From Candidatus Sulfopaludibacter sp. SbA3 (GTDB lineage: Bacteria; Acidobacteriota; Vicinamibacteria; Vicinamibacterales; UBA2999): a stretch of DNA of 64,000 nt. The stretch spans positions 124,001 to 188,000 of the forward strand of contig CAMDNQ010000002.1 in assembly GCA_945903265.1 (NCBI GenBank), given 5' to 3'. The notes under the pieces were generated by a model. It was given only the letters and a program-made list of their open reading frames with translations, was not told where the DNA came from and made no database searches. A program made the translations under genes and the position numbers. This document shows positions 30,042 through 48,068 of the stretch, one piece after another (the first letter of the stretch is position 1; the number at the start of each line of letters is the position of its first letter).

Positions 30042-30118
30042 TGGTGCGCCCTGCAGGATTCGAACCTGCGACCTCCTGGTTCGTAGCCAGACGCTCTATC
30101 CAGCTGAGCTAAGGGCGC
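30042..30118 (-). tRNA. tRNA-Arg (anticodon ACG), CCA apparently encoded
   Basis: Reverse complement GCGCCCTTAGCTCAGCTGGATAGAGCGTCTGGCTACGAACCAGGAGGTCGCAGGTTCGAATCCTGCAGGGCGCACCA folds as a cloverleaf; anticodon loop CTACGAA. Confidence 0.95.
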
Positions 30119-30119
30119 G
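30079..30119. repeat. att-like direct repeat, copy within the intact tRNA-Arg
   Basis: gttcgtagccagacgctctatccagctgagctaagggcgcg. Confidence 0.85.
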
Positions 30120-30226
30120 ACGGGAGAGATGGATTTTCAGGCGCTCCTGCGGGCAAAAACCCCGGGCGCACAGTCCCTGACTATACCATCCGGGGACGGG
30201 CTTGGGTCTGAAAGGACCTCTGTCTC

Positions 30227-30335
30227 GTGGAGTCACTGAACACGCTCTTCGCGCATTTTCTGCAGGAACGTCGCTACATCCGGAACATCAGTCCCAAGAC
30301 CGCCATCTGGTATGAGACGGCGTGGAAAGCCTTCC
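30227..30335 (+). pseudogene. tyrosine recombinase/integrase N-terminal fragment
   Basis: MESLNTLFAHFLQERRYIRNISPKTAIWYETAWKAFRAG resembles the SAM-like core-binding domain; no catalytic domain follows, and downstream is antisense to the ATPase. Confidence 0.6.
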
Positions 30336-31087
30336 GCGCCGGTGACCCCACCATCGCGACGTTTATCAACAACCAGCGTGAGCCTGTTTCCCTTCACTTC
30401 CGCCTTCAGAACCACGTCAGCGCGGTCCCGAAGCGATCCGTGGCCGCGATCCATAGTCCCCTCCTTGGTGGCATGGTGGACGAGAAGAACGGTGGCACCG
30501 GGCTCTCGGATCAACCGCATCTGCTCCCCGACACTCTCCATGTGTTGGGAATTGTTCTCGTCGCCCCACCCCGCGAGACAGGCCCCCAGCGTGTCAATCA
30601 CAACAAAAACTTCGGTAGGACTATGGGCGTCTCGGAACCCCTTGATGTCCTCAATCAAGCGATTCACCGATTTGCGATCCAGCAGGAAAACCGGTTGCCC
30701 GAGCAGAAAAAAGTTCCAAGGCAATTCCGTAATCCCCGTATGCACCCTATACGCGCGGAGCCGTGCTCCGATCCCAGGTTGTCCCTCGGCGGCGACGTAA
30801 ATGACGATAGCGCCCCGGATGGAGCGGTCTGCCCAGGACTCCCGCTTGCGAGCAATCGCCAATGCGAGATCAAGAGCAAGGAAGGATTTCATCGTCCCGG
30901 GCTTTCCAAAAAGCATGGCAAAAGCGCGAAGCGGAATCAGCCCGTGAACCAGCCAGTCGATACTGCCGGAGGATTCCTCCAGACTCGCCGCCGTCGTCCA
31001 AGGCAAGTGAGTGTCGACGCTCTTCGCGTCATCGTCGGGCCCCAGATACACGACGTGTTGTTTCGTGTCGTCTTTCTCATTTTCCAT
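30233..31087 (-). CDS. RepA/RecA-superfamily AAA ATPase (AAA_25-like)
   Basis: FAMLFGKPGTMKSFLALDLALAIA Walker A; VFVVIDTLGACLAGWGDEN Walker B; VLLVHHATKEGTMDRGHGSLRDRAD; AAGGAGG upstream of ATG 31087. Confidence 0.75.
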   Translation of the reverse strand: MENEKDDTKQHVVYLGPDDDAKSVDTHLPWTTAASLEESSGSIDWLVHGLIPLRAFAMLFGKPGTMKSFLALDLALAIARKRESWADRSIRGAIVIYVAAEGQPGIGARLRAYRVHTGITELPWNFFLLGQPVFLLDRKSVNRLIEDIKGFRDAHSPTEVFVVIDTLGACLAGWGDENNSQHMESVGEQMRLIREPGATVLLVHHATKEGTMDRGHGSLRDRADVVLKAEVKGNRLTLVVDKRRDGGVTGAEGFPRRLIPDGGLGTDVPDVATFLQKMREERVQ

Positions 31088-31271
31088 TCGGTCCTCCTTC
31101 AATGGATTCGTCCGTCGAAATCCAGAGGCACTGAATGGCGGCAGAAAAGAAGTTACGAGCGGCTCGATCTGTTGGCAAGCGGAACGCGATAACCCCTTCA
31201 CGCCCGAACACTTAGCTTCGCCGTGTTACTCCACGGAGACTGTCCCAAAAGTTTTGTGCGATATTATTTCG

Positions 31272-31727
31272 GTGTCACAGGGAAGACCGAAAGCTCCGCT
31301 CAGCATCGCCCCCGCTCAACTTCGCGAGCTGAAACAAGTCGCCCAAAAGAGTCCGAACACGCGGACGGGTGTTCGGGCGCGAATGGTTCTGCTGAGTCTC
31401 TCTCAATCGATTCGCGAAGTGGCGAGGCAGATCAACGTCGCACCACAGACCATCGCCCGGTGGCGGGAACGCTATCGTTGTTTGGGAGTGCCTGGGCTCG
31501 GAGACCGCCCCAGATCGGGACGGCCATCAATTACGCGCTCGCAGCTGAAGCGGATTCTGAAGCGAAGACGTGTGCCCAACTGGTCGACTCGGTTGGTCGC
31601 AGTCGAGGCACAGGTATCGAAGACGACGGTTGCGCGGAAGTGGCGTGAGACGGGTCGCAGGCCGAAACGAGTGGTGCTATTCACAACGCTAAAACGTCGT
31701 GCCCGCCGTCAACGACGTGAGCGGTAA
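31272..31727 (+). CDS. IS630-like transposase HTH domain, DDE domain missing
   Basis: GVRARMVLLSLSQSIREVARQINVAPQTIARWRERYRCLGVPGLGDRPRSGRPSITRSQLKRIL; stop before any DDE region. Confidence 0.6.
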   Translation: MSQGRPKAPLSIAPAQLRELKQVAQKSPNTRTGVRARMVLLSLSQSIREVARQINVAPQTIARWRERYRCLGVPGLGDRPRSGRPSITRSQLKRILKRRRVPNWSTRLVAVEAQVSKTTVARKWRETGRRPKRVVLFTTLKRRARRQRRER

Positions 31728-31848
31728 TTCGTGCGATGTGGCGTCGTGTTAGGATCGCTCTCGACCCTCTGTCTCCACCACGTTGCCGCGAATCAGCTGG
31801 TTGTTTTATTGATATTTCGCGACGAAGTCGCGCAAGGGCGCTGCCCTT

Positions 31849-31889
31849 GTTCGTAGCCAGACGCTCTATCCAGCTGAGCTAAGGGCGCG
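31849..31889. repeat. att-like direct repeat: orphan 5' half of tRNA-Arg
   Basis: Identical over 41 nt to 30079-30119. Confidence 0.85.
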
Positions 31890-31943: not shown

Positions 31944-31963
31944 CAACAACCAATTATATGTTT

Positions 31964-33301
31964 TTACTTCGATGTGCCGCTTGGATTCCCTTTGACAAGG
32001 GTTTGATACGCACGCTCGAAGTAGACATACGCGCCGAAAATATCCTCCGTCTCGGTATCGGGACCGGCCAGCGAGTCATCGCCGCCAGGGATATCCGAGA
32101 GCGTCGTCGCCATCCGCTGTTCTGCCGCCGTCGTCGGACTGGCTGAGACGCGGAAGACGCGCCGGAGGCGGCGCAGGCCCCGATTGAACTCCGCTACGGC
32201 GCGCTTCACGATGCGGTCAGGGCGGAGATTCCCGTTGATCACCTTGTCGATCGAGCCGCGCACGAAGTCGGCGACGCCAAGTATGCCCACCGGGGTCATG
32301 AAGCTCAGAAGGCGCCCCCCGATCGACAACGCCGTGCCGAGCGCGTTGTTCGTGAATTCTTCCTTGACCTTTTCGATCGTGGCGCCCTGCGCGTCGAGCT
32401 TCGGGATAATCTGCTCGGCGATCGACCGCTGGACGTTCTCGAGCGCATCGCCGTTGCCCTTGATCGCCAGGGCGAGCTGGTCGGTCCCGACGCCCAGCTT
32501 GCCGGCGAGAATCGACAGACTCGCGCCCGCCTTGGCATCGACGCCAAGCAGCGTATTCGCCATCGTATCGACCTTGCTGTCGGTGATGCCGAGCGCGTTC
32601 CTCACCGCGGCGAGCGCCGACATCTGCGTCGCTGCGTTCGAGTTGTCGTTGGCAATGATCCGCGCTTCGCTGTTCTGAACCTCGGTGATCACCCCGCTCA
32701 GATCGGTTCCGCCACCACCTCCGCCCCCGCCGCCTCCACCGCCGGGATCTTCACTAACAAGTCCCGCGATGCTGACGCGTGACGAGGTCGTGTCGATCCA
32801 GTAGAAGTAGTAGAGACCGCCCACAGGCGGCATGTTGCCCTGCAACTGGACGCGAAACTTGTACGACGTCCCCGAGCCGATGCCGGAAATGGGTGTCGTG
32901 AGCGGAAAATCGACGATGACAGGGTCAGGGATCGCGTTGCAGTGCGTGATGGTGTTCGGCAGCGGCGCGGTGCCAACCAGCACGTCGTTCAGATAGAACG
33001 CGAGCGTGGGCGCCGGCGCGCCGATCAGCAGACAGCTGTCCTTGAACACGATGCTGAACGCGACGGCGTGCACTTGGGCGATGTGCAGGCTGGACGTTCG
33101 TTCGGCCTCGGCGCCCTGGCCGTCCTGAAACCATCCGAACAGTCCGGGCGGGTCCGGGAGCGGGACCGCCGGACTGCCGAAAATCCGGTCGTGAGTCTGC
33201 GGAAACTGGAACGTCTCTGGGATTGGAGTCTGAGCCGCGGCCGGCGCCGCCAGCATCAACGCAAGGAACACCAGCAGATACAAACGCATAGGGGAGCGCA
33301 T
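31964..33301 (-). CDS. secreted protein with poly-Gly linker
   Basis: Signal peptide MRLYLLVFLALMLAAPAAAQ; SEDPGGGGGGGGGGGGTDLSG; helical C-terminal half. Confidence 0.55.
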   Translation of the reverse strand: MRSPMRLYLLVFLALMLAAPAAAQTPIPETFQFPQTHDRIFGSPAVPLPDPPGLFGWFQDGQGAEAERTSSLHIAQVHAVAFSIVFKDSCLLIGAPAPTLAFYLNDVLVGTAPLPNTITHCNAIPDPVIVDFPLTTPISGIGSGTSYKFRVQLQGNMPPVGGLYYFYWIDTTSSRVSIAGLVSEDPGGGGGGGGGGGGTDLSGVITEVQNSEARIIANDNSNAATQMSALAAVRNALGITDSKVDTMANTLLGVDAKAGASLSILAGKLGVGTDQLALAIKGNGDALENVQRSIAEQIIPKLDAQGATIEKVKEEFTNNALGTALSIGGRLLSFMTPVGILGVADFVRGSIDKVINGNLRPDRIVKRAVAEFNRGLRRLRRVFRVSASPTTAAEQRMATTLSDIPGGDDSLAGPDTETEDIFGAYVYFERAYQTLVKGNPSGTSK

Positions 33302-33489
33302 GTACAGGTCCTTTCGCGAATTCGAGTTGTAGGGGTCCCGGAAAAACGCGCCTACTATACCCGCGGTCGCGCCGATCGGGCACGTCTTTTCCGCTTGGAC
33401 TTCCGGTCCTTTGGGAGTATCAATGCGCCTGTAAACTCCCCTACCCCAATCGGACACCGCGCGGATGCGCAAGGCGCAGGAGACACAGC

Positions 33490-36402
33490 ATGCACCTCTC
33501 GAGCATCGTGAAACGGCTGGCTACCGTCGGGTTTCTCGTCGCGTTGTTGCCCCTCCCGGGATTTGCACAGGATGCGATCGTCAGCGGCAAGGTGACGGAT
33601 ACGACAGGCGGCGTGCTGCCTGGCGTCGTCGTCACCGCCGTGAACGCCGCCTCGGGGAACACGTACCAGTCGGTGACGGACGAGCGCGGGGATTACCGCC
33701 TGCCGATCCGCATCGGCACCTACCGGCTCGCCGCGGAACTGACAGGGTTCGCGGGGCCGGCACGCACGATCGAAATGCAGGTGGGGCAGACCATTGTGGT
33801 CGACCTGCAGCTGCGTCCGTCCGACCTGCAGGAATCGATCACAGTGACTGGCGAGGCGCCGTTGATCAGCACGGTGAGCTCTACGGTCGGCGCCAACATC
33901 GATCGGCGGCAGATGGAATCGATCCCGCTTCTGGGCCGCAACTGGATGGACCTGGCGCTGCTGGCGCCCGGGGTCCGCTCCATCGAATCGTCCGGCGTGC
34001 CGGAAGAACGCCAGGGCTACTCGCAGATCAACGTCGACGGCCAGCAGGTCACGGCGCTCCTCGCCGCGACGGAAACCGAGCAGCCGAAGTACAGCCGCGA
34101 CGCGATCGCCGAATTCGAGATCGTCTCGAACCGCTTCGACGCCAGCCAGGGACGCTCCGCCGGGTTCGCGGTGAACGCGATCACGAAGTCCGGCACCAAC
34201 GCGAACTCGGGCACGCTGTCGGGGTACTTCCGCGACGACCGGCTGAACGCGGCCGACCCCGTCCAGAAACGGGTGATCCCGTACAAGAACCAGCAGATCG
34301 GCGGGACGTTCGGCGGCCCCATCCGACGCGATCGAATCCACTATTTCGGGAACTACGAATACGAGCGGGAACCGAACACGCTGATCTTCCAGGGGCCGTA
34401 TCCGCGCTTCAACATGGACATCCCGGTCACGCGCACGGAGCACAAGGGCATCATGCGGGCTGACGTCCAGTTCACGCCACAGACGCGGCTCTCCGTCCGC
34501 GGACAGGGGTACCACCAGTACTACTACACGGGCGGCGGCGCGACGACGCATCCCGGCAACGCTGCGGAGAACGAGCGCTACGGGAAACAGGCGTGGGCGT
34601 CGCTGACGAAAGTCATCAGCAACAGTGCGGTGCTGTCGGTCGAAGGGGGCTACGCCACCTTCACACGCGGCAACCGGCCGTGGAATCTGAACTGGCAGGG
34701 CGGGTGCAACCCGAACGCGCCGAAGCTGACCGAAGGGCGCTGCGGCGGATCGCCAACCGTCGCCTTTGCCGGGTATTCGATTGGCTCGACGACAGGCCAG
34801 CTTCTCTCGCAGAACGCCACCCAGGCCAAGACCCAGCTGACGACCTCCTACAACTGGAAGGGCCGCCACGACGTGAAGGTCGGCGGCGACGTGATCCTGA
34901 GCCCCATGGAATGGATCTGGTGCACCGGCTGCATGGGCGCGCTGACGGTCACCAACAACACGCGGCCACCGGCGAACGTCGAGGATCTGTTCCCCGTCTG
35001 GAACGACGTCTCGACGTGGAACTTCGGGGCGCTGTCGCCCATGACCCTCCGCGTCTCGCAGACCGTGTCGTCTACCGGATTCGTCTGGTATCCGAGAACC
35101 GACATGGCGGGCGCGTGGTATCAGGACGACTGGCAGATCAGTTCGCGCATGACGCTGAACCTCGGGATGCGCTGGGACGTGCAGGTGGGCGCGTACAACG
35201 AAAAACTCGAGGTCGAACCGTGGTTGCCGGGCGACCTGCCGTACGACCTGAACAACTTCGGACCGCGCATCGGCGGCGTCTTCTCGCTCAACGAGCGCAC
35301 GGTGCTGCGCGGCGGCTACGGTCTGTACTACACGCAGGCCACGACCGACGAGGCGCAGCAGACGCTGGCGATGAAGTACATCACCGGCACCGAAACGCTG
35401 AACGACGGGCGGGCGAATTTCGCGGGCAACTGGTTTAACGGCCCCACCCTCACCTTCGACCAGGCCCTCGCGCGCGCGTGCGATCAGAACGGCGGCGCGG
35501 CCGGCTGTCTGCGGCGCAACGACCCGGCCGGCGAGATCAATCTCAAATGGCAGCCGACGGCCTACTCGCATCAGGCTTCGATCGGGTTCCAGCGGCAGCT
35601 CGGCGCCACGATCGGCGTCGACGCCGACGTCGTCTACACGGGCGGGCGCGGCGAGGAGCGCGTCTACAACATGAACCGCACGTTCAACCCCGCGACGGGC
35701 GATCAGAACAACTTCAACACGATCGCGCTGCGCGCGTTTCCGAACTGGGGCACCATCCGCGGCGCCTTCCGGGAGGGATGGTCGGACTATTACGGTCTCC
35801 AGATGGCGTTCAAGAAACGCATGGCCAACCGGTGGCAGGCATCGGTTTCCTACTCGTTCTCGAAGATGTGGGAGGGCACGCCGGCGCCGGATCAGTTCAG
35901 TTTCGCCGGCGGGGTGGAATCGGCCGATACCCTCACGCGCACGCCGGTGAGCTTCCTGCGCTGGGACGTGGACCGCCAGTACAACCCGACGAGCGCCGCC
36001 CATCACCGTCTCGTGAACAACGCCATCTGGGACATCGGCCGCGGCATGCAGCTCAGTGGCGTCTACCTGTTTACCGACGGCGGGTTCCTCACGACGAACT
36101 GCGGCTGCCAGATCGGCACGGGCCTCAGCAACCGGCTTCGCCTGGACGGCAGCGTCATCGAGATCAATAACTTCAACCGGTCCGAGATCCATCGGCTCGA
36201 CGCGCGGTTCCAGAAACGATTTCAGTTGGGCGGCGCCCGGACGGTCGACGGGATTGTCGAGGTCTTCAACCTGACGAATCACGGGAACTTCGGCTCCTAC
36301 ACGGTCGACGAAAGCAACGCGCTGTTCGGACAACCGGTGTTCAACAGCAACATCGCGTACCAGCCGCGCGTGATCCAGCTCGGCTTCCGCGTCGCGTTCT
36401 AA
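33490..36402 (+). CDS. TonB-dependent receptor with carboxypeptidase-regulatory-like domain
   Basis: DAIVSGKVTDTTGGVLPGVVVTAVNAASG; VTGEAPLISTVSSTVGANIDRRQMESIPLLGRNWMDLALLAPG; C-terminal LGFRVAF. Confidence 0.87.
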   Translation: MHLSSIVKRLATVGFLVALLPLPGFAQDAIVSGKVTDTTGGVLPGVVVTAVNAASGNTYQSVTDERGDYRLPIRIGTYRLAAELTGFAGPARTIEMQVGQTIVVDLQLRPSDLQESITVTGEAPLISTVSSTVGANIDRRQMESIPLLGRNWMDLALLAPGVRSIESSGVPEERQGYSQINVDGQQVTALLAATETEQPKYSRDAIAEFEIVSNRFDASQGRSAGFAVNAITKSGTNANSGTLSGYFRDDRLNAADPVQKRVIPYKNQQIGGTFGGPIRRDRIHYFGNYEYEREPNTLIFQGPYPRFNMDIPVTRTEHKGIMRADVQFTPQTRLSVRGQGYHQYYYTGGGATTHPGNAAENERYGKQAWASLTKVISNSAVLSVEGGYATFTRGNRPWNLNWQGGCNPNAPKLTEGRCGGSPTVAFAGYSIGSTTGQLLSQNATQAKTQLTTSYNWKGRHDVKVGGDVILSPMEWIWCTGCMGALTVTNNTRPPANVEDLFPVWNDVSTWNFGALSPMTLRVSQTVSSTGFVWYPRTDMAGAWYQDDWQISSRMTLNLGMRWDVQVGAYNEKLEVEPWLPGDLPYDLNNFGPRIGGVFSLNERTVLRGGYGLYYTQATTDEAQQTLAMKYITGTETLNDGRANFAGNWFNGPTLTFDQALARACDQNGGAAGCLRRNDPAGEINLKWQPTAYSHQASIGFQRQLGATIGVDADVVYTGGRGEERVYNMNRTFNPATGDQNNFNTIALRAFPNWGTIRGAFREGWSDYYGLQMAFKKRMANRWQASVSYSFSKMWEGTPAPDQFSFAGGVESADTLTRTPVSFLRWDVDRQYNPTSAAHHRLVNNAIWDIGRGMQLSGVYLFTDGGFLTTNCGCQIGTGLSNRLRLDGSVIEINNFNRSEIHRLDARFQKRFQLGGARTVDGIVEVFNLTNHGNFGSYTVDESNALFGQPVFNSNIAYQPRVIQLGFRVAF

Positions 36403-36415
36403 CCGCGCCCATTCA

Positions 36416-36443
36416 CCCGGCACCAGAATCATCTGGTGCCGGG
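36416..36443. terminator. 12-bp perfect hairpin after the TonB receptor gene
   Basis: CCCGGCACCAGA-ATCA-TCTGGTGCCGGG, 14 nt after the stop codon; weak U tract. Confidence 0.5.
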
Positions 36444-36468
36444 CCCTTGATTCAGAGCAGACTGGCTC

Positions 36469-36615
36469 ATGACTCTGTTGGCCGGCCCCGTCGGTCCGTC
36501 GCGGTTTGGCCGCGCCCGGGAAGCTCTCTCCGATGTCCTGATCGTCACGGCGCTCGTCTGGGTGCCGGTCCTGATAGCCGGAGGACTGTGGGCCGTCGTC
36601 AGGATGTTCCTGTAA
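36469..36615 (+). CDS. small single-TM protein (48 aa)
   Basis: MTLLAGPVGPSRFGRAREALSDVLIVTALVWVPVLIAGGLWAVVRMFL. Confidence 0.4.
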   Translation: MTLLAGPVGPSRFGRAREALSDVLIVTALVWVPVLIAGGLWAVVRMFL

Positions 36616-36633
36616 CGTCCGTGTAACCGCTCG

Positions 36634-37539
36634 ATGCCGGCTCTTGTCGCCGTCCTGCTCTTCACCGTACTCACCGCATCATCAGGGCACGCCCAGACGC
36701 TCTATTCGCGCGACGCCGCGAAAGAGCCAGGCGCACCGAGCTGGGCGATCGAACGCGCGAAGCTCCCCATGTTCAGTCCATCGCGGATGCCGGATGGCGC
36801 GCCCGATGTGCGCGGGCGCTGGGCGGGAACACCGGGTGGCGACGACGTCGAAGAGCACGGCTACGTGGACGTGAGCAGTCCGCCCGAGGAGACGTTCATC
36901 GACGATCCGCCAGGCGGGAGGCTGCCCTATCAGGCATGGGCGGTCGCCGCGCGCAACGCGCATCGTGCCGGCCTGGCTCGCGGCTGGCCTGGTGAAACGG
37001 GCGCGCGTCTCTACGCCGACCCCCAGACGTATTGCCTGTACTCAGTGCCGCGCGCGACATACCGCGGCGGATTCGACATCCAGCAGGGCCCGGGCTACGT
37101 CCTCATCCTCTACAACTTCAGCCACTACTACCGCTACATCCCGACAGACGGGCGGTCCGGCCGGCCCGGTACCAGTGCGCGATTCTGGATGGGCAGCTCA
37201 CGCGGCTCTTGGGACGGCAACACGCTCGTCGTCGACGTCACGAATCTGAATGGGAAGAACTGGCTCGATCAGGTGGGCAACTTCTTCGGCGCCGGCGCGC
37301 ATGTCGTCGAGCGCTTCACGCTGGCGGCACCGGGCATCATCGACTATCAGGTGACAATCGACGACCGGCAGGTCTTCACCCGGCCGTGGACGATCCGCCT
37401 TCCGATCCGGCGGGCTGCCGTGCCCGCCAACGACCGCTATGCGTCAGAGATGTGGGAGCACGCCTGCCACGAGGGCAACAAGTCAGGCGAGGAGATGCGA
37501 GCGCTCGGGTTCGGGTGGTTCAGGCCACCGTCCCCATGA
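36634..37539 (+). CDS. secreted hypothetical protein of the WxGxTLVxDV family
   Basis: WMGSSRGSWDGNTLVVDVTNLNGKNWLDQVGNFFGAGAHVVERFTLAAPGIIDYQVTIDDRQVFTRPWTI. Confidence 0.65.
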   Translation: MPALVAVLLFTVLTASSGHAQTLYSRDAAKEPGAPSWAIERAKLPMFSPSRMPDGAPDVRGRWAGTPGGDDVEEHGYVDVSSPPEETFIDDPPGGRLPYQAWAVAARNAHRAGLARGWPGETGARLYADPQTYCLYSVPRATYRGGFDIQQGPGYVLILYNFSHYYRYIPTDGRSGRPGTSARFWMGSSRGSWDGNTLVVDVTNLNGKNWLDQVGNFFGAGAHVVERFTLAAPGIIDYQVTIDDRQVFTRPWTIRLPIRRAAVPANDRYASEMWEHACHEGNKSGEEMRALGFGWFRPPSP

Positions 37540-39118
37540 GCTCCTCGTAGGTGCCCTTGAAGTCGACGATGCGTCCCTTCTCGAACTGCCAGACCCTGGT
37601 CCCGACTTCCTCCAGCAGATCCTGATCGTGCGTCACGAGGAGCACCGTCCCCTCGAATTTCTGGAGCGCCACGTTCAACGCGTTGATCGATTCCAGATCG
37701 AGGTGGTTCGTCGGTTCGTCGAGGACGAGCACGTTCGGCTTGAGCAGCATGATCCGGCAGAAGAGGAGCCTCGCGGTCTCGCCGCCTGACAGCGCTTCGG
37801 TCGGCTTGAGGCCTTCCTCCCCGCTGAAGAGCATCTGCCCGAGCAAACCGTGAATGTCCTGACGCGATGCCTCGGGATCGAACTGGTGCAGCCATTCGAC
37901 CGCGGTCATCCCTTTCGTAATCTCGCCCGCGTGATCCTGCGCGAAGTACCCGATCGACACCTCGTGGCCCCAGCGGAATTTTCCCGCGTCGACGTCACCG
38001 GGTGACGGCGGCAGGTCTGGCGCGTCGGCCAGCAACGCCTTCAGGAGCGTGGTCTTGCCGGCGCCGTTGCGCCCGACCAGCACGATCCGGTCGCCGCGAT
38101 TGATGACGCCGCCGAATTTCGAGATGACCTTGTGGTCGCCGTGCGCCTTGCTGAGGCCCTCGAACTCGACGACCACCTTCCCCGACGGCCGCTTCGGCAC
38201 GAATTTGATATACGGGCGCTGGATGTTCGACCGCGCCAGCTCCGTCGTCTGCAGGCGCTCGACTTCCTTGCGGCGCGACGTCACCTGGCTCGCGCGCGTG
38301 CCCGCGCCGAAGCGGGCGATGAAGTCCTGCAGCTGCGCAATCTTCTTCTCGCGCTGCACGTTCCCGGCCTCGATCGTCGTCCGGATCTGCGTCTTGGCGA
38401 CGACCATGTCGTCGTAGCCGCCCGTGTAGGTGATGATCGTCTCGTAGTCGATGTCGGCGATGTGCGTGCAGATGCCGTTCAGGAAGTGCCGGTCGTGCGA
38501 AATGACGATCAGCGTGCCTTCGTAGCGGCTGAGGAACTGCTGCAGCCAGTGAATCGAGTCGAGGTCCAGGTGGTTCGTCGGTTCGTCGAGAAGCAGCGCA
38601 TCGGGACGGCCGTAGAGCGCCTGCGCGAGGAGCACGCGCACCTTCTGCCCGCCCTGCAGCTCGGCCATCGTCCGCTCGTGCAGCGCGTCCGCGATGTCCA
38701 GTCCCTGCAGAAGGACGGCGGCGTCACTTTCCGCTGAGTAGCCGTCCTCTTCCCCGACGATGCCTTCCAGTTCGCCAAGGCGCATGCCGTCCTCGTTGGA
38801 CATGTCGGCTTTCGCGTAGAGCGCGTCCCGTTCCGCCAGCGCCTTCCACAGTCGCTGGTTGCCCATGATGACGGTGTCGATCACGCGGTACTGGTCGAAC
38901 GCGTAATGGTCCTGACGCAGGACGCCGAGCTTTGCGGGACGGTTCACGTTGCCGCGCTGCGGCTCGAGCTCACCCGTCAGCAGCTTCATGAAGGTGGACT
39001 TGCCTGCGCCGTTCGGGCCGGTCAGGCCATAGCGGCGGCCCCGGGCAAACGTCGTCGTGACGTCCTCGAAGAGAACCTTCGACCCGTACCGCATTGACAC
39101 ACCAGTGACAGCAATCAT
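37520..39118 (-). CDS. ABC-F family ATP-binding protein
   Basis: Two Walker A (GPNGAGKST, GRNGAGKTT) and two signature motifs (LQGGQKVRVLLAQAL, LSGGETARLLFCRIM), no TM domain. Confidence 0.92.
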   Translation of the reverse strand: MIAVTGVSMRYGSKVLFEDVTTTFARGRRYGLTGPNGAGKSTFMKLLTGELEPQRGNVNRPAKLGVLRQDHYAFDQYRVIDTVIMGNQRLWKALAERDALYAKADMSNEDGMRLGELEGIVGEEDGYSAESDAAVLLQGLDIADALHERTMAELQGGQKVRVLLAQALYGRPDALLLDEPTNHLDLDSIHWLQQFLSRYEGTLIVISHDRHFLNGICTHIADIDYETIITYTGGYDDMVVAKTQIRTTIEAGNVQREKKIAQLQDFIARFGAGTRASQVTSRRKEVERLQTTELARSNIQRPYIKFVPKRPSGKVVVEFEGLSKAHGDHKVISKFGGVINRGDRIVLVGRNGAGKTTLLKALLADAPDLPPSPGDVDAGKFRWGHEVSIGYFAQDHAGEITKGMTAVEWLHQFDPEASRQDIHGLLGQMLFSGEEGLKPTEALSGGETARLLFCRIMLLKPNVLVLDEPTNHLDLESINALNVALQKFEGTVLLVTHDQDLLEEVGTRVWQFEKGRIVDFKGTYEELMGTVA

Positions 39119-39141
39119 GAAAGAGAACCCTCGAACGCGAC

Positions 39142-39162
39142 GCGCAGGCTGAAAGCCTGCGC
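39142..39162. repeat. intergenic hairpin GCGCAGGCT-GAA-AGCCTGCGC
   Basis: 9-bp perfect inverted repeat upstream of the ABC-F gene. Confidence 0.5.
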
Positions 39163-39212
39163 TCTACCGAAACTCTTGGAGCCCGGTGAACTGTTAATTG
39201 TAGCAGGCGCGT

Positions 39213-41078
39213 TTAGCCGCTGTGGCTGCGGATGGCGGAGAGGAAGATCTCCCCCAGGTCGTCGGCCTTCCGGGCCCCGACCCCCTTGACGGAGAGCAGC
39301 GCGTCGAGGGAGGTGGGCCGAAGCCGAGCCATTTCACGCAGTGTCGCGTCATGGAAGATGACATAGGGCGGGACGCCGCGTTCCCGGGCGGTTTCGAGCC
39401 GCACGGCGCGGAGCCGTTCGAAGAGATCGCGATCGACGTCCTGCCACGATTCGGTCTCTGCGCGCGACCGGACACGCGCCGCATCCTTTCGGACAGGCTT
39501 CTGACGGGCCAGCGTCAGGCCCGGAACACTATGTTCGTCCTTCAACAGCGCGAGGCCGCGGGCGGTCAGCACGACGATCGAGTAGGCATCGTCTGTGAGA
39601 CGCAGCAGGCCCGACGCCACGAGCTGCTGGATGTAGCCCCGAACCTCGGCGACGGATGCGTGCGGGAGCAGCCCGAAGGTGCTCAGCTTGTCGTGCGCCC
39701 TCGCGAGGACCTGCTCGGAGGCATGCCCCCGGAGCACGCTCGCCACGTGGACGGCGCCGAAGCGCTGCCCCACGCGCGCCACGCATGACAGGATCTGCCT
39801 GGCCAGCCTGATCGGCTCGGCGGTGGTCTCGAGCTCGCCAAGGCAGAAGTCGCACGCGCCGCAGCTGTCGCCCTCGAAGCGGTCGCCGAAGTACTCCGCG
39901 AGGTGCCGATGCCGGCATCCGATGCCAGCGGCGTACTGTTCCATCTGCCGCAGGAGCGTGCGGGCGGCGTCGGTCAGCTCGCCGTTGGCTTCGAGCATGA
40001 CCCGCCATTTCATGACGTCGGCCGAGGAATAAATCAGCAGGCACTCGGCTTCCAGGCCGTCGCGCCCCGCCCTCCCGGATTCCTGCTGGTAATGCTCGAT
40101 CGATCGCGGCGCGCCGGCGTGAACTACAAAGCGGACGTTGGACCGATCGATGCCCATGCCGAACGCCACGGTGGCGACGATGACATCGACGCGTTCGCTC
40201 AGGAACGCATCCTGATTGCGGCTCCGCTCGGCCTCGGCAAGGCCCGCATGATACGGAAGCGCCGGCGTGCCCTCGGCGGTGAGCCAGGCGGCCAGGGCGT
40301 CCACTTCGCGCCGCGACGTGCAGTAGATGATGCCGGCTTCGCCGCGATGGCGCGCGAGGAGGTCGAGCAGCTGGCGCTTCAGCACCCCTCTCGGCAGCAC
40401 GCGATACACCAGATTCGGCCGGTCGAACGACCCGACCAGCTCCACCGGATCGCGCAGGCCGAGCTGTGTGGTGATGTCGCGTCTGACACGTGCCGTGGCT
40501 GTGGCCGTGAACGCGTGGATGCTGATACCTGGCAGGGCGTCGCGCAGCCGCGCGAGCTGCCGGTACTCCGGCCTGAAGTCGTGTCCCCACTGGCTGATGC
40601 AGTGCGCTTCGTCCACGGCGACGAAGCTGACGCCGCACGACGCCAGCAGCGAAAGAAACCCCTCGCCGCCTTCCCCGACCAGCCGCTCCGGAGAAACATA
40701 GAGGAGGCGGTACCGCCCCTCGCGGAGACCCGCGACGACGGCGCGCTTTTCTTCCGACGTCAGCGAGCTGTTGTACAGAACGGCGGGGACACCGTTGCCA
40801 ACGAGCGTATCGACCTGGTCCTTCATCAGGGAGATGAGCGGAGAGATGACAAGGGCGAGGCCGGGGCGCACGACCGCGGGTGCCTGGAAGCAGAGTGACT
40901 TGCCGCCGCCGGTCGGCAGCACCACGAGGGAGTCCCGTCCTGCGAGGACGGCGTCAATGGCCTCGCGCTGGAGCGGGCGGAACGTGGAGTAGCCCCAGTA
41001 GCGCGTCAGGGCATCGTGCAGCTCGGGGATAGACAAGGCGCCCATGATCCCACGCCGCGATGCACCTCTTGCGCTCAT
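39213..41078 (-). CDS. recQ: ATP-dependent DNA helicase RecQ
   Basis: YSTFRPLQREAIDAVLAGRDSLVVLPTGGGKSLCFQAPA, VDEAHCISQWGHDFRPEY, zinc Cys cluster CGACDFC, HRDC-like C-terminus. Confidence 0.93.
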   Translation of the reverse strand: MSARGASRRGIMGALSIPELHDALTRYWGYSTFRPLQREAIDAVLAGRDSLVVLPTGGGKSLCFQAPAVVRPGLALVISPLISLMKDQVDTLVGNGVPAVLYNSSLTSEEKRAVVAGLREGRYRLLYVSPERLVGEGGEGFLSLLASCGVSFVAVDEAHCISQWGHDFRPEYRQLARLRDALPGISIHAFTATATARVRRDITTQLGLRDPVELVGSFDRPNLVYRVLPRGVLKRQLLDLLARHRGEAGIIYCTSRREVDALAAWLTAEGTPALPYHAGLAEAERSRNQDAFLSERVDVIVATVAFGMGIDRSNVRFVVHAGAPRSIEHYQQESGRAGRDGLEAECLLIYSSADVMKWRVMLEANGELTDAARTLLRQMEQYAAGIGCRHRHLAEYFGDRFEGDSCGACDFCLGELETTAEPIRLARQILSCVARVGQRFGAVHVASVLRGHASEQVLARAHDKLSTFGLLPHASVAEVRGYIQQLVASGLLRLTDDAYSIVVLTARGLALLKDEHSVPGLTLARQKPVRKDAARVRSRAETESWQDVDRDLFERLRAVRLETARERGVPPYVIFHDATLREMARLRPTSLDALLSVKGVGARKADDLGEIFLSAIRSHSG

Positions 41079-41148
41079 CCGTTTTTTCCGCCAAAATTCG
41101 GGGTTCTCTTAACACGCCCGGGTCGCCATCCGGGACGCTCAACTCACC

Positions 41149-44010
41149 GTGAGGAAAGGTATTTCGCTGATGATGCACCGTACTTGGTTGAGGACTGCCC
41201 TTCTGGCTGTGGCCGTCCTCGCATTGCCGTCGCTCGCCCGAGCGCAGGCGTCTATTACCGGAGTCGTGACCGACGAGAGTGGCGGCGCCCTTCCCGGCGT
41301 CACCGTCGAAGCGACGAGTCCCGCGCTCATCGAGAAAACCCGTACCGTCGTCACCGACGGCGAGGGCCTCTTCCGCCTGGTCGATCTGCGGCCCGGCGCG
41401 TATTCCGTGACGTTTACACTCCCCGGGTTCGCCACCCTCGTGCGCGATCAGATCACCGTGTCGGGCACGGGCACGATGACGGTCAACGGCCAGCTCAAGG
41501 TCGGCACCCTGGCAGAAACCCTGACAGTGACCGGCGAAGCGCCGATGGTGGATACGAGCAGCGCCGCGCGGGAACAGGTCGTGGATCGTGAGCTCCTCGA
41601 CGCACTCCCGACGGGCCGCCAGATGTGGACCGTGGCGGTCACGCTGCCAGGCGTCACGCTCAACGGCCAGGACGTCGGCGGCGCCGGCGGTCTGCAGCAG
41701 ACGCGGATGCGCGCGTTCGGTGCGGTGGAACAGGAAGTCACGATCGAAGTCGACGGCATCCTGATGAACTCCGTGCACGGCGGCGGCAGCACCCAGCAGT
41801 ACTTCAACGACGGCATGGTCCAGGAAATGTCGGTCGCGACCGGCGCGCTCGATGCGGAAACGCAGACGGGCGGCGTGCGGCTGAACATGATTCCGCAGAC
41901 CGGCGGCAATGTATTCAGCGGCTCCATCATCGCTGTGACCGTACCCAGCCCGAGCTTCCAGAGCGACAACCTGAGCGACGAACTCCGGAATGCCACGTGC
42001 GGTCCGACGAACGCGCCCTGCGGCCTCACCTCGGTGAACGGCGTCAACAAGATCGGCGACTTCAACGCCTCGGCGGGCGGCCCGATCATGCAGGACAAGC
42101 TCTGGTTCTTTGCCTCGTCACGCACGCTGATCGGCGACACGACCTGGCCGAACGTGACGTACCTCGAGAAGAACCGCATCTACGAGCAGTCGGTGCGCCT
42201 CACCAGCCAGCTGAATCCGGTGCACAAGGTGACCGGCTTCTACGAGCGGAACAAGAAGACGAAGAGCGCGCAGTCGCCCGGCGTCGGCACCGACTTCGAA
42301 GCCGCCAACCAGCGCACCGGCCAGCAGCCGTACGAAGTCGCACAGCTGAAATGGACCGGCACGGTGAGCCCGCGCTTCCTCCTCGAGGGCGGCTGGGGCC
42401 TGAGCGCGATCCGCTTCGACCTGGCGTATCAGGACGGCATCGCCGCGCCGCGCGGCACGCCGGAGTGGTTCTCGCGCGTGGCGCGCCGCGATCTGGGGCT
42501 GAACACGCTGCGCGTGGCCGGTGTCCCCTTCACCAACAACATCAACCACCGGAACACGTTCCACTTCACCGGGACCTACGTAACCGGCGCGCACGCGTTC
42601 AAGTTTGGCGGCCAGCAGAGCTCGGGCCCGCTGCAGACGATTTCTGACTCGAACGGCGACCTCGTGCAGCAGTACCGCAACGGCGTTCCGGAGTCCGTCG
42701 TCGTCTACAACACGCCATACGACACGACGGCCGACACCGATGCGGACGGCGGCGTGTTCGCGCAGGACACCTGGCGCCGGGGGAACCTGACGATGAACCT
42801 GGGCGTCCGCTATGACTTCTTCGCGTCGTCGATTCCGGATCAGATCGCGCCCGCGGGCCGATTCGTGCCGGAACGGCGCTTCGCGAAGATCGTGTCGCCG
42901 ACCTTTCACGACATCTCGCCGCGCCTCAACGCGACGTGGGATCCGTTCGGCGACGGCCGGACCGCGATCAAGGGAGGGTTCAGCAAGTTCGTGAACCGCA
43001 TGACGGCGGGCACGCTGGTCAACCCGTACAACCCGCTGGCGTCGACGACCGACACCCGCACGTGGACGGATCTGAATCGCGACGACGTGGCGCAGGACAA
43101 CGAAATCGGTCCGCGCAACAGCGCCGCGTTCGGCACCTCGACGACACGGACGTTCGACCCGGACATGGTCCGGCCGTTCAACCGGTTCTACAACGTCAGC
43201 GTGGAACGGCAGTTCGTCGAGGGCTTCCAGATGGGCCTCGGCTTCTACCGCCGCACCTTCCACGACCTGATCGGCAGCGACAACATTCTCGTGTCGCCGG
43301 CCGACTTCACCGCGCGCACGGTGGCGAACCCGCTCGGGGGCGCGCCGCTCACGGTCTGGAACCTGGATCCGGCGAAGCGCACCGCGCAGCAGATCGTCGA
43401 CACGAACGACCCGAACCAGGAATACGTCTATAACGGCATCGACGTGAACTTCCAGGCACGCCTGGGCGGAGGCCGTCTCCTCGGCGGCGTGACGACCGAG
43501 CGCTGGGTCATCGACAACTGCAGCGTCGACGATCCGAACAACCCGATTCCTGGCGGCTCCTATCCGGGCACGACCGGGGGGGCGTTCTGCAAGCAGAGCG
43601 ACCATGACATTCCGTTCAGGACGCAGGCGAAGTTGAGCGGATTCTATCCGCTGCCCATCTTCGGCCTCGAGTTCAGCGGCGTGTTCATGAGCTTCCCGGG
43701 CGAACGCGCGTTCACCAACTACACGGTGACGCCGGCCATCTCGCCGGGGCTCACGCAGGCGACCATCACGGTGCCGCTCGCGGCGCCGGGTGAGAAGTAC
43801 CTGGATCAGCGCTTCCAGACGGACCTGGGCCTGGCCAAGGCGATCCGTTTCGGCGCCGCGCGCCGGGTGCGCCTGCAGCTGGACCTGTTCAACGTGTTCA
43901 ACGCGAACACCGTGATGTCGCGCTTCGCGACCTTCGGCCCGCGCCTCGACCAGCCCCAGGAAGTCCTGGTCGGCCGGTTGATGCGCCTCGGGGTGCAGTT
44001 CCACTTCTAG
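41149..44010 (+). CDS. TonB-dependent receptor with carboxypeptidase-regulatory-like domain
   Basis: QASITGVVTDESGGALPGVTVEATSPALIEKTRTVVTDGEGLFRLVDLRPGAYSVTFTLPGF; C-terminal LGVQFHF; ATG 41170 is an alternative start. Confidence 0.87.
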   Translation: MRKGISLMMHRTWLRTALLAVAVLALPSLARAQASITGVVTDESGGALPGVTVEATSPALIEKTRTVVTDGEGLFRLVDLRPGAYSVTFTLPGFATLVRDQITVSGTGTMTVNGQLKVGTLAETLTVTGEAPMVDTSSAAREQVVDRELLDALPTGRQMWTVAVTLPGVTLNGQDVGGAGGLQQTRMRAFGAVEQEVTIEVDGILMNSVHGGGSTQQYFNDGMVQEMSVATGALDAETQTGGVRLNMIPQTGGNVFSGSIIAVTVPSPSFQSDNLSDELRNATCGPTNAPCGLTSVNGVNKIGDFNASAGGPIMQDKLWFFASSRTLIGDTTWPNVTYLEKNRIYEQSVRLTSQLNPVHKVTGFYERNKKTKSAQSPGVGTDFEAANQRTGQQPYEVAQLKWTGTVSPRFLLEGGWGLSAIRFDLAYQDGIAAPRGTPEWFSRVARRDLGLNTLRVAGVPFTNNINHRNTFHFTGTYVTGAHAFKFGGQQSSGPLQTISDSNGDLVQQYRNGVPESVVVYNTPYDTTADTDADGGVFAQDTWRRGNLTMNLGVRYDFFASSIPDQIAPAGRFVPERRFAKIVSPTFHDISPRLNATWDPFGDGRTAIKGGFSKFVNRMTAGTLVNPYNPLASTTDTRTWTDLNRDDVAQDNEIGPRNSAAFGTSTTRTFDPDMVRPFNRFYNVSVERQFVEGFQMGLGFYRRTFHDLIGSDNILVSPADFTARTVANPLGGAPLTVWNLDPAKRTAQQIVDTNDPNQEYVYNGIDVNFQARLGGGRLLGGVTTERWVIDNCSVDDPNNPIPGGSYPGTTGGAFCKQSDHDIPFRTQAKLSGFYPLPIFGLEFSGVFMSFPGERAFTNYTVTPAISPGLTQATITVPLAAPGEKYLDQRFQTDLGLAKAIRFGAARRVRLQLDLFNVFNANTVMSRFATFGPRLDQPQEVLVGRLMRLGVQFHF

Positions 44011-44039
44011 TTCGATCGCCGCGCCGATCGGAATCGTCG

Positions 44040-44070
44040 GGGACCGGGCGAAAGCCCGGTCCCTTTTTTA
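44040..44070 (+). terminator. rho-independent terminator
   Basis: GGGACCGGGC-GAAA-GCCCGGTCCC-TTTTTTA. Confidence 0.9.
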
Positions 44071-44104
44071 TTGACAGGCACGCACGCCTGATTACGATCT
44101 CGCC

Positions 44105-44765
44105 ATGCCGAAGCTCAGTCGTGCGATGCTCGCTGTCCCGCTGTTCGCCCTCGCGTGCGCCAGCCCCGTCGACCGCGAGGCGGTGACGGCGACGTCCGCG
44201 GCACCAGCGGCCGGCGAACCCGACCTTGCGGCCGTTCGTGCCGCCACCGAAAAATTTCAGGACGTGAACGTCGCGCTCGCCGCCGGCTACATCCGCGATC
44301 CGTTCGACCTGTGCGACACGGCGCAGATGATGGGACGTCCGGCGGAGCTCGGCGCCATGGGCGTCCACTACTTCCGGCCCGAGCTGCTCGGGATCACGGC
44401 ACCGCCAAATCCGCGCGTGACTGGAACCGGCACCCACACCGATTTCCTGACGCCGTCGATTTCTGATCTACGAGCCGCAGGCCGACGGCTCCCTGGAGCT
44501 CGTGGCCGTCGAGAACCTGGTGTGGGTGGACGCGTGGACGGCCGCGGGACAGAAGGAACTGCCGTCATTCCACGGCGTGCCCTACGACCGCATGCAGGAC
44601 GACCCGGCGACGCCGGCAGACGAGGCCCACCAGTTCCAGCCTCACTACGATCGACACGTCTGGCTGTACCGCGAGAACCCCAGTGGTGTCTTCGCCCCCT
44701 TCAATCCCGCGGTGAGCTGCGCCCATCATCGCGGCGCCACCCATCACACGGGGGCCACCAAATAG
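44105..44765 (+). pseudogene. secreted hypothetical protein interrupted by a frameshift
   Basis: N-terminal part in frame of 44105 up to GTHTDFLTPS; C-terminal part (IYEPQADGSLELVAVENLVWVDAWTAAG...) in the next frame; junction near T-run 44460-44462. Confidence 0.75.
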
Positions 44766-44859
44766 GCCTGAGAGGGATAATCGCTCCGCTGAGCTGATCT
44801 CTAAGTCCTGTCGCAGCAATCGTTTGCAAGCGAACGGTAATAGCTGTATCCTCTCCCGT

Positions 44860-45369
44860 ATGAAATTTTTCACCGTGTCCGCCGCAATTGCCTTGTCAGT
44901 GGCGTTCGCTGCCCCTGCCTCCGCGCAGGTGCGCACGACGCCTCCCGGCAAGCTGTTCTTCGAAGGCGATATCGTCAAGCACAACCTCGAAGGGCAGATT
45001 GGCCCGTTCTGTGTGCTCCAGAGCCGCTACATGCGCGGTGAGGCTGTGGCCTGGCGTATGCGCCTCGCGCTGCCGAGCGGCGCCAATGTCGATGACAAGA
45101 TCGTGAAGAGCCTTGTCGTGCACATGAACAACGGCCAGACGCTGCCGCTTGATTACGGCCCGCATGGCAACCCGCCCACCGATTTCTTCTGGGCGAACTC
45201 GTGGACGATTCCGGCGAACCACCCGACCGGGTCGCTCGGCTACAAGGTCGTCGCCACGATGGTTGATGGAAGCGTCGTGACCTGGGAGCCCTTCACGCGC
45301 CCGGCGTCGCAGCTGTGGGTGATCGAGGGCACGCCGGTGACGAAGACGGCGACGTCCGCCGCTCAGTAA
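44860..45369 (+). CDS. secreted hypothetical protein
   Basis: MKFFTVSAAIALSVAFAAPASAQ signal peptide. Confidence 0.65.
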   Translation: MKFFTVSAAIALSVAFAAPASAQVRTTPPGKLFFEGDIVKHNLEGQIGPFCVLQSRYMRGEAVAWRMRLALPSGANVDDKIVKSLVVHMNNGQTLPLDYGPHGNPPTDFFWANSWTIPANHPTGSLGYKVVATMVDGSVVTWEPFTRPASQLWVIEGTPVTKTATSAAQ

Positions 45370-45386
45370 GATCCGCCGGGACCAGG

Positions 45387-46862
45387 GTGCGCACGTCAGC
45401 CTTCGTCCTGTTTTTCACAGTTTTTCTCACAGAGTCCGTTCTCACCACGCCGGCTTCCGCACAGGAGCCGGCGTCGTCTTTTGGGCCGCAAGTAACCGTC
45501 GGCCAGCCGCGTGACGGCTACGTCGGCACGATGCGCGTCGCGCCGCTGCACGGCAAGGCCGGAGACCCCTTCACGATCACGGCAGCGGATCTGCCGCCCA
45601 ACCAGGACTTTCAGCTGATCTGGCGCACGGTGGACGGACGGTGGAACGTCACCGAATCCGAATACAAGGGGCGCGAGTTCGTCCCCGTGAATTACGAGAT
45701 GGCGCGGGTGCGCAGCGATGCCGCCGGACGCCTCCAGGCGACCTTCAAGACACCCGAGGACTTCGGGTTCAATCACGACATCGTGCTGCAGCAGGGCGAC
45801 CGCGTGATGACGCAGGTCGACTACTCGATCGACATGTCGGTTGAGATGTCTCCGAAGAGTGGGCCGCTCGGCACCCCGATCAACATCGCGGTCAAGGGCA
45901 TCGGCTATCGCAACCTCGAGATGTCCTTCAACCTGCTGTACGACAACCGCTGGACGGGCTGGATCTCCGCGGTGACGACGCACGGGTCCGGGCAGTTGAC
46001 GATTCCGGCGACCGGCCACGTGGGCGACCACGTCATTGAAGTGCTGCACGGCCAGTTCGGATTCCCGTATCGCAACCAGGAGCAGAGTCCCGAGCCTGAC
46101 CGGCCAAGGTTTTCGATTCCGTTCACCGTAACCGCGGGCGCGCCGGTGCTGCCGCCGGCGCCGGCCTCACAGGCACAGACGCACGTGCGCCTGGCAGCTC
46201 CACATGGCGATCTGCATTCGAACCCGCGCTTCTCGGGTGTCGGCGAAACGGTGACCGTAACGGGCGAGAAGTTCACGCCCGGGGAGCGCTACACGCTGAA
46301 CTGGACGCGGGTGATTGGTAACCGCATCGACGGCGGCGGATGGGAAACGCGATCTATTCCTGTTGGTAACGCCGTCGCGGATCGCGATGGGCGTGTGGCC
46401 ATCACCTTCGTCACGCCGGACGATCTCGGCGGAACGCACGGGTTGTTTATCGACGCGGGCGGCACGCGCCGCATGGGCACGCACTTCGTGAAATCGACGG
46501 CGCTCCCGATGAACGTCACGCGCGGGCCCGTCGGCACCAAGATCACGCTGCACCTGAAAGGCGTCGGCTGGACCGAAACGTCGAACATCATGCATCTGGT
46601 CTACGACAACGGGTACATCGGGTACGCGTGCGCGTTCAACAGCCAGGGCGACGTGACGATTTTCATGGAAGCCACCGGCGCGCCAGGCTGGCATTTCATC
46701 GATCTCTATCCGGGCATCTACAAGGGCACGGAGACGCTGCCCATCAACTACCGCATGCCGCAGCTCACCTATGCGGCCGACCATCCCGGCGAAGATCTGC
46801 CGGCATTCCGCTTCGCCTTCGAAGTCACGTCAGCAACGACGACGACCGGCTCTCAGGACTAA
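45387..46862 (+). CDS. secreted multi-domain Ig-like protein (GTG start)
   Basis: Signal peptide VRTSAFVLFFTVFLTESVLTTPASAQ; several G-GxP(F/I)xIxxxG(I/V)GY-type beta modules. Confidence 0.6.
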   Translation: MRTSAFVLFFTVFLTESVLTTPASAQEPASSFGPQVTVGQPRDGYVGTMRVAPLHGKAGDPFTITAADLPPNQDFQLIWRTVDGRWNVTESEYKGREFVPVNYEMARVRSDAAGRLQATFKTPEDFGFNHDIVLQQGDRVMTQVDYSIDMSVEMSPKSGPLGTPINIAVKGIGYRNLEMSFNLLYDNRWTGWISAVTTHGSGQLTIPATGHVGDHVIEVLHGQFGFPYRNQEQSPEPDRPRFSIPFTVTAGAPVLPPAPASQAQTHVRLAAPHGDLHSNPRFSGVGETVTVTGEKFTPGERYTLNWTRVIGNRIDGGGWETRSIPVGNAVADRDGRVAITFVTPDDLGGTHGLFIDAGGTRRMGTHFVKSTALPMNVTRGPVGTKITLHLKGVGWTETSNIMHLVYDNGYIGYACAFNSQGDVTIFMEATGAPGWHFIDLYPGIYKGTETLPINYRMPQLTYAADHPGEDLPAFRFAFEVTSATTTTGSQD

Positions 46863-46872
46863 AGAATCCTCC

Positions 46873-47424
46873 TCAGATATTCAGGCGCGGACGCGTCTTC
46901 AGAAGCCGTTCGATGGCGTCTGCAAGGTGCTCCTCGGTGATGTTGCCGTCGCCGCGCTCGACGCGGAGGTGATGGGCCTGCATCAGGACATCGACGGCGC
47001 GGAAGCCTTCGGGCGGCTCGAACTTGTAGCACGCGAGCTCCACCTTGAGTCCGTTCGGATCGCGGAGATAGATGGAGTCCATGAAGCCGCGATCGCGCTG
47101 GATGAACTCGATGCCACGTTCCTGCAGGCGCGCCGGCGCCTGCAGGAACGTGGCCCGGGACACATTGAAGGCAATGTGCTCGACGCAGCCCACTTCGCGC
47201 GGCGCGTGCCGCCGCGCGTCAGGAAGCAATTCGTTCGTGAACACGGTGAGCAGGCGGCCGTCACCCGGGTCGAAGTAGAGGTGGTTTTCGTCCGGCTTGC
47301 CCAGATTCGGCTGCTCGAAGACGAACGGCATGCCCAGCGCGCCCTGCCAGAAGTCGATGGCGCTCTGCCTCGTCGAGCCGACGAGCGTGATGTGATGAAC
47401 CCCTTGCACCTGGATCTGCTTCAT
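46873..47424 (-). CDS. VOC/glyoxalase-family protein
   Basis: VQGVHHITLVGSTRQSAIDFWQGALGMPFVFEQPN ... GFMDSIYLRDPNGLKVELACYKFE. Confidence 0.88.
   Translation of the reverse strand: MKQIQVQGVHHITLVGSTRQSAIDFWQGALGMPFVFEQPNLGKPDENHLYFDPGDGRLLTVFTNELLPDARRHAPREVGCVEHIAFNVSRATFLQAPARLQERGIEFIQRDRGFMDSIYLRDPNGLKVELACYKFEPPEGFRAVDVLMQAHHLRVERGDGNITEEHLADAIERLLKTRPRLNI
47114..47153. repeat. perfect 18-bp inverted repeat with 4-nt loop inside the VOC gene
   Basis: CCACGTTCCTGCAGGCGC-GCCG-GCGCCTGCAGGAACGTGG. Confidence 0.9.
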
Positions 47425-47507
47425 CTGGACTCCTGCCACAAACTGGCTGGTCTATTCTCGCCCGAACCCGATCCCCCTTTTTGCGTCCGTCGGCGGATAA
47501 TCCAGCT

Positions 47508-48041
47508 ATGAGCCAGGAAGAACACAAGGCGCACGCCCCCGCGTCGGTGGCCTGCTACGTCCTCAGCGTCAGCGACTCCCGCACCGAGCAGACGGATACG
47601 GGCGGCCGCACGATCCGCGAGCTGCTCGAAGGGGCCGGCCACACGGTTGTCGGCCACGCGATCGTCAAGGACGATCCCCACGCGGTGACGCTGCACGTCG
47701 AAGGTCAGCTGCTGACCCCGGACGTGCAGGTCATCATCACCACCGGTGGTACCGGCATCACATCGCGCGACGGAACGTTCGAAGCGATCGACGGCCTGCT
47801 CGAGAAGCGCCTGGAAGGATTTGGCGAGCTGTTCCGGATGCTCAGCTACCAGGAAATTGGCGCGGCGGCGATGATGAGCCGAGCCACCGCCGGGACAGCG
47901 ATGCGATCGCAGGCGATCCCTGGACCCGCGCGCCCCAAGGCGATCTTCGTGTTGCCCGGCGCGCCGGAAGCCGTGCAGCTCGCGATGACGAAGCTGATCC
48001 TCCCCGAGCTGGGACATGTGGTGCAGCAGCTAAACCGGTAA
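47508..48041 (+). CDS. moaB: MoaB/Mog-type molybdopterin biosynthesis protein
   Basis: SVSDSRTEQTDTGGRTIRELLEGAGH ... ITTGGTGITSRDGTFEAI ... LPGAPEAVQLAM. Confidence 0.9.
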   Translation: MSQEEHKAHAPASVACYVLSVSDSRTEQTDTGGRTIRELLEGAGHTVVGHAIVKDDPHAVTLHVEGQLLTPDVQVIITTGGTGITSRDGTFEAIDGLLEKRLEGFGELFRMLSYQEIGAAAMMSRATAGTAMRSQAIPGPARPKAIFVLPGAPEAVQLAMTKLILPELGHVVQQLNR

Positions 48042-48068
48042 CGACCAACCACCAACCACCAACCAGCC

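Follow-up and report, generated by a model that had tools for sequence, protein, structure and literature searches.

A decayed mobile element at the tRNA-Arg(ACG) gene of Candidatus Sulfopaludibacter sp. SbA3 and the probable replacement of the 5' half of this gene

In the genome of Candidatus Sulfopaludibacter sp. SbA3, the tRNA-Arg(ACG) gene is accompanied by a second copy of its own 5' half, and 1.73 kb of DNA separates the two. We asked what this intervening DNA is, which of the two 5' halves is native to the chromosome and whether the tRNA may now depend on imported sequence for its expression. For this purpose we considered a stretch of 64,000 nucleotides surrounding the locus (hereafter the window) together with 162 genomes of the same order.

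The intact gene (30042 to 30118, minus strand) was recognised by ARAGORN, in agreement with Rfam RF00005, as a tRNA-Arg(ACG); it is the sole tRNA of the window and, according to a pattern search, the only ACG tRNA matched in the genome. The second copy (31849 to 31889, minus strand) lies upstream of the tRNA on the same strand and reproduces exactly tRNA positions 1 to 40 plus one upstream base, a C, giving 41 bp; if one mismatch is allowed, the match extends to tRNA position 44, at 31845. The exact match stops one base past the 7-nt anticodon loop CTACGAA (positions 33 to 39), in the 3' strand of the anticodon stem. An exact same-strand repeat of 41 bp is far beyond chance, and no comparable repeat occurs elsewhere in the window. 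The genome-wide search listed no partial copy other than this half (98% over 44 nt, E 3.4e-15); the remaining tRNA matches that it listed were full-length paralogs of at most 86% identity. An earlier note on this DNA had described the intact gene and the 41-bp copy at these positions, in the same orientation and reaching just past the anticodon, and had considered that a repeat dispersed over the genome would refute an island; both copies and their limits are confirmed, and no further half copy was listed in the genome, which rules out a dispersed repeat as the identity of the copy. An intron or another structured RNA was also ruled out, the tRNA model alone having matched at the locus.

The stretch between the two copies has a GC content of 58%, against 65% for the window, and contains three gene remnants. 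Beginning 109 bp upstream of the tRNA and divergent from it, there is an N-terminal fragment of a tyrosine integrase of about 41 codons (30227 to 30349, plus strand). Pfam gave no match for this fragment, which was recognised, among the 162 genomes, by its similarity to integrase fragments of two genomes, G006 (65%) and G077 (59%), and to the full 298-residue integrase of a third, G114 (40%), itself matched by PF00589. The next gene, on the opposite strand, encodes a RepA-like AAA_25 ATPase that has lost its C-terminus (30350 to 31201, minus strand; PF13481, 1.5e-30). Its similarity to an ATPase of G114 ends at residue 284, which corresponds to base 30350, and the similarity of the integrase stops at about the same base, where integrase codon ~41 is joined to RepA-like codon ~284; as both similarities end at this approximate scar (30350), one deletion probably joined the two genes. 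The third remnant (31374 to 31700, plus strand) is the helix-turn-helix part only of an IS630-family transposase (PF13565 and PF13551; positions 2 to 123 of 299 of NF033545, below the cut-off). Taken with the low GC, the integrase start, the RepA-like ATPase and the IS630 fragment identify this stretch as a foreign, mobile and dead element. The island proposed in the earlier note thus stands as regards foreign mobile DNA between the copies, although what is left is just a 1.7-kb remnant without a working integrase. No intact integrase of the G114 clade was found in the genome of the window, whose best match to the G114 integrase (28%) looks like a chromosomal Xer type.

The ATPase resembles phage helicases and primases and plasmid RepA proteins alike, and the element may have been an integrative plasmid, a satellite or a mobilizable island. 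A phage origin was also considered, and a scan of viral contigs with the G114 integrase gave nothing; in a scan of genome contigs the sole match was the record of G114 itself. The element ends have no useful DNA similarity to the relatives, and the two ends compared with each other share a single 10-bp match. As a separate observation, roughly the first 40 integrase codons alone persist at three loci (30227 to 30349 in the window, 9627 to 9740 in L058 and about 9887 to 9973 in L065); like non-autonomous elements, these loci may have retained the remnants together with attP arm sites, or the agreement may be a coincidence.

A complete relative of this element is found in G114, an Acidobacteria MAG of the same order as the host of the window, which puts that host in Acidobacteriota. 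There, an element of 11.3 kb is inserted at an intact tRNA-Phe gene (C3:31437-31512), and a 100% copy of positions 1 to 56 of this tRNA lies upstream on the same strand (C3:20039-20094). The integrase gene is complete, begins 88 bp upstream of the tRNA-Phe and is divergent from it, which matches the fragment of the window in place and orientation. Among the 162 genomes the window ATPase had only two non-self matches. The better of them (37%, 3.6e-26) is encoded within this 11.3-kb element and aligns at 34% up to residue 284; its order and orientation relative to the integrase and the tRNA are identical to those in the window. The two loci therefore agree in two genes plus the att layout, including the displaced 5' fragment. 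They differ in that the G114 element uses another tRNA, has kept a complete integrase and carries cargo, including thermolysin-like and trypsin-like proteases, and in that its shared block, unlike that of the window, extends to tRNA position 56 and includes 12 bp ahead of the gene.

The limits of the repeat suggest where recombination occurred. In the intact tRNA the core reads TCTGG-CTACGAA-CCAGG and in the far copy TCTGG-CTACGAA-CAAGG, so that in both a 7-bp overlap formed by the anticodon loop (tRNA positions 33 to 39; 30080 to 30086, minus strand, in the intact copy) is flanked by near-symmetric arms. In the relatives, the 5' pieces end at tRNA positions 39 to 43, apart from one cut at 37 by the end of its contig, and the 3' pieces mostly begin at positions 32 or 33. 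All these junctions fit a crossover within the anticodon loop, and the limits of the half copies and the symmetry of the core would place the exchange in these 7 bp. The suggestion of the earlier note that the shared block is the 5' half and that crossover probably took place in the anticodon arm agrees well with these data. In another genome, G024, tRNA-Arg(ACG) was found only as pieces on different contigs, positions 1 to 43 (L031, C40:45966-46008) and 33 to 77 (L032, C57:29516-29560), with an integrase-like ORF (PF13102, slightly below the cut-off) 92 bp after the former; no intact ACG tRNA was found in this assembly, as a result either of a contig missing from it or of an element that disrupts the tRNA and brings its own.

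Because the two 5' halves are identical, the native one is not identifiable from its sequence alone, and we turned to the flanking genes. The usual neighbour upstream of tRNA-Arg(ACG) in relatives is moaB, encoded on the opposite strand and often 60 to 500 bp away. The moaB-moeA pair of the window (47481 to 49289, plus strand; ORFs with 70% and 73% identity to G009 proteins) is also upstream of the tRNA, past the displaced half, in the order and orientation of the relatives. Between them, 75 bp from the displaced half, is orf31964 (31964 to 33472, minus strand), a gene of no matched family whose homolog in G022 (59%) sits between tRNA-Arg(ACG) and moaB, adjoining moaB; neither a 5' half nor an integrase fragment nor an ATPase was found at the G022 locus. 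The position of the orf31964 homolog in G022 and that of moaB in relatives, both upstream of the tRNA, show that the native 5' flank is the one at 31.9 kb and, consequently, that the intact tRNA bears the 5' half of the island: the gene at 30042 to 30118 is read as a native 3' half completed by an island-derived 5' half, and the copy at 31849 to 31889 as the displaced native half. The earlier note had expected that an empty site would be a single tRNA joining the 31.9-kb flank to the 30.04-kb flank. The 5' side of this expectation is supported by the G022 homolog and the moaB linkage; on the 3' side, the amidohydrolase gene of the window is not conserved beside tRNA-Arg(ACG) in relatives.

In the window, about 14 kb of ordinary-looking genes (33490 to 47440), encoding two Oar-like outer-membrane proteins, an ABC-F-like ATPase, RecQ and others, separate orf31964 from moaB, which are neighbours in G022; this segment is a separate insertion or rearrangement. 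It could be argued from this rearrangement, and from the identity of the two halves, that the intact tRNA has kept its own 5' half and promoter and that the half at 31.9 kb arrived with the island or a neighbouring segment, with no promoter swap. We consider this very unlikely, since orf31964, separated from the displaced half by only 75 bp, belongs to the native 5' side in G022, since the integrase and the ATPase lie between the orf31964 flank and the intact tRNA, and since in G009 and G011, too, a 5' half is joined to the moaB flank. In these two genomes the displaced halves adjoining moaB (G011, L033, C20:7354-7395; G009, L034, C3:7040-7078) are followed by mobile-looking genes, with a TrwB-like coupling-protein domain and a TOTE primase/helicase, and the matching intact tRNA-Arg(ACG) is absent from both assemblies. 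The neighbourhood of this tRNA has another recurrent feature: at five loci (L040, L055, L057, L058 and L060) a tadA-like deaminase gene, named by eye, lies within 6 kb of tRNA-Arg(ACG), which is the expected TadA substrate, and tRNA-Ser(CGA) is also nearby in four of these five relatives.

The history that we favour, with a probability of roughly 0.87, is that an element carrying the 5' half of the tRNA in its attP inserted at the anticodon loop, restored the tRNA, displaced the native half and then decayed to a remnant. The attP of an integrative element would have held a copy of the 5' half of tRNA-Arg(ACG) and would have recombined with the chromosomal gene at the anticodon loop. The native 5' half would thereby have moved to the far end (31849 to 31889), while the native 3' half and the 5' half of the element would have formed the restored tRNA beside the integrase gene. 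Later, an internal deletion would have fused integrase codon ~41 to RepA-like codon ~284; the IS630 fragment would have persisted in a 1.73-kb remnant unable to move by itself. A different account, in which an ordinary rearrangement partly duplicated the tRNA gene and unrelated mobile debris landed between the copies later, would accommodate the lack of a working integrase and the presence of IS630 debris. It is nevertheless highly improbable in our opinion, as the integrase fragment occupies the position known from complete relatives (its distance to the tRNA is 109 bp, that in G114 88 bp), the order of ATPase and integrase is that of G114 and the repeat stops at the anticodon loop, where an att site would be expected to end. 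A misjoin in what is a draft genome of 45 contigs is scarcely credible, given that the locus is inside a 260-kb contig, that its gene order matches that of an independent genome and that a 41-bp repeat is short for such an error.

If the element restored the tRNA in this way, the joining of the native 3' half to the 5' half of the element implies that the leader of the tRNA is island-derived, and probably its promoter too. A TATAGT motif resembling a -10 box lies on the island side, 67 bp upstream of the intact tRNA (30180 to 30185, minus strand), and a TATAAT motif upstream of the displaced half (31953 to 31958, minus strand) is a candidate for the original tRNA promoter. Of 20 relatives, 13 have a motif of the form TATA[AGC]T in the 110 bp preceding the tRNA, where 0.29 would be expected, and shuffled stretches yield such a motif in 0.3% (island side) and 0.7% (native side) of cases. 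A scan for the sigma-70 consensus found no full promoter, and a scored promoter scan reached significance on neither of the two sides in the window; the -10 motif alone stood out. With the -10 motif of the lineage on the island side and no full consensus promoter, a promoter swap is likely but unproven: the tRNA would now have an island-derived leader and a putative island promoter. The earlier note had the island supply both the 5' half and the promoter; synteny supports the first, and a -10-like motif is what speaks for the second.

The integrases of G114, G121, G207, G429 and G240 group in a single clade (100/100), separate from 52 further matches; these resemble chromosomal Xer types, and their short loci contain no tRNA. 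All five adjoin tRNA genes or tRNA-like sequences. The fragment left by the element is a 5' one in G114 and a 3' one in G240 and in G207, where it neighbours the integrase, the intact gene being 10 kb off. Relative to the tRNA, the integrases of G114, G207, G429 and the window share one direction, and those of G240 and G006 have the opposite one; the clade, to which the integrase of the window also belongs, is Xer-like, tRNA-associated and found in both orientations. In the single-contig genome G429, two whole identical tRNA-Ser(GGA) genes bracket 18.7 kb (L153/L154, C1:2419583-2438410), with the clade integrase beside one of them. In G121, a diverged tRNA-Phe-like gene, read by ARAGORN as Leu(GAG), lies beside the clade integrase (L163, 9009-9084), and a second, more degenerate tRNA-Phe-like piece is found 0.9 kb away (L163, 9986-10034). 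A near-symmetric anticodon arm may, from these few cases, permit switches of the half carried and of orientation.

One could go further and propose that the dead element has been retained because the only tRNA-Arg(ACG) found in the genome now takes its promoter and 5' half from it, and that the Xer-like clade has repeatedly switched the half it carries and its orientation; we regard this as a tentative idea, somewhat more doubtful than probable. Without an integrase the element would not be cleanly removable, so that the host would depend on a fossil, and loss of the remnant would presumably harm the cell. Most tRNA islands leave the tRNA under its host promoter. The island of the window appears to have replaced the promoter of the only ACG tRNA found in its genome and, if this is confirmed, would be a clean case of an island that has become needed through the leader of a tRNA rather than through cargo. 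The related integrases, with both orientations and with 5' halves, 3' halves or a whole tRNA, provide a small natural series on att-site change in tRNA genes.

Several known systems resemble this locus. The Islander collection includes 159 islands with a 5' fragment among 3919, and 2083 that are anticodon-centred (PMC4383910). As in these 5'-fragment islands, an intact tRNA gene and a cognate end fragment, in the same orientation and with the 5' fragment upstream, bound mobile DNA of an integrase-encoding element. Islander also looks for a PF00589 integrase gene, present in G114 and reduced in the window to an N-terminal fragment, and for a length of 2 to 200 kb, where the duplicated blocks of the window span about 1.77 kb, measured from outer end to outer end; with 1.77 kb and 41 integrase codons, the locus would be dropped by the filters, and its length, below the Islander minimum, leads us to file it as a remnant of a tRNA-gene genomic island. 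Archaeal pTN3-like elements also share the 5' half of a tRNA, as a 41-bp block, and separate the restored tRNA from its promoter, a situation described in review as rarely met in bacteria (PMC8371274; PMC5495485). Integration of pTN3 disrupts its own integrase gene, which spans attP and is split, whereas the integrases of the window and of G114 start outside the shared block, 109 bp from the tRNA in the former and whole, 88 bp away, in the latter. In tRNA-dependent lysogeny, a tyrosine integrase likewise acts within an essential tRNA gene of the host, with a core of about 10 bp, but the host tRNA stays broken and the phage supplies a whole one (PMC10865867); in the window, by contrast, the shared block restores the gene and there is one tRNA. 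Islands with a 5' tRNA fragment are therefore uncommon but already known, and the locus described here is a new, decayed case.
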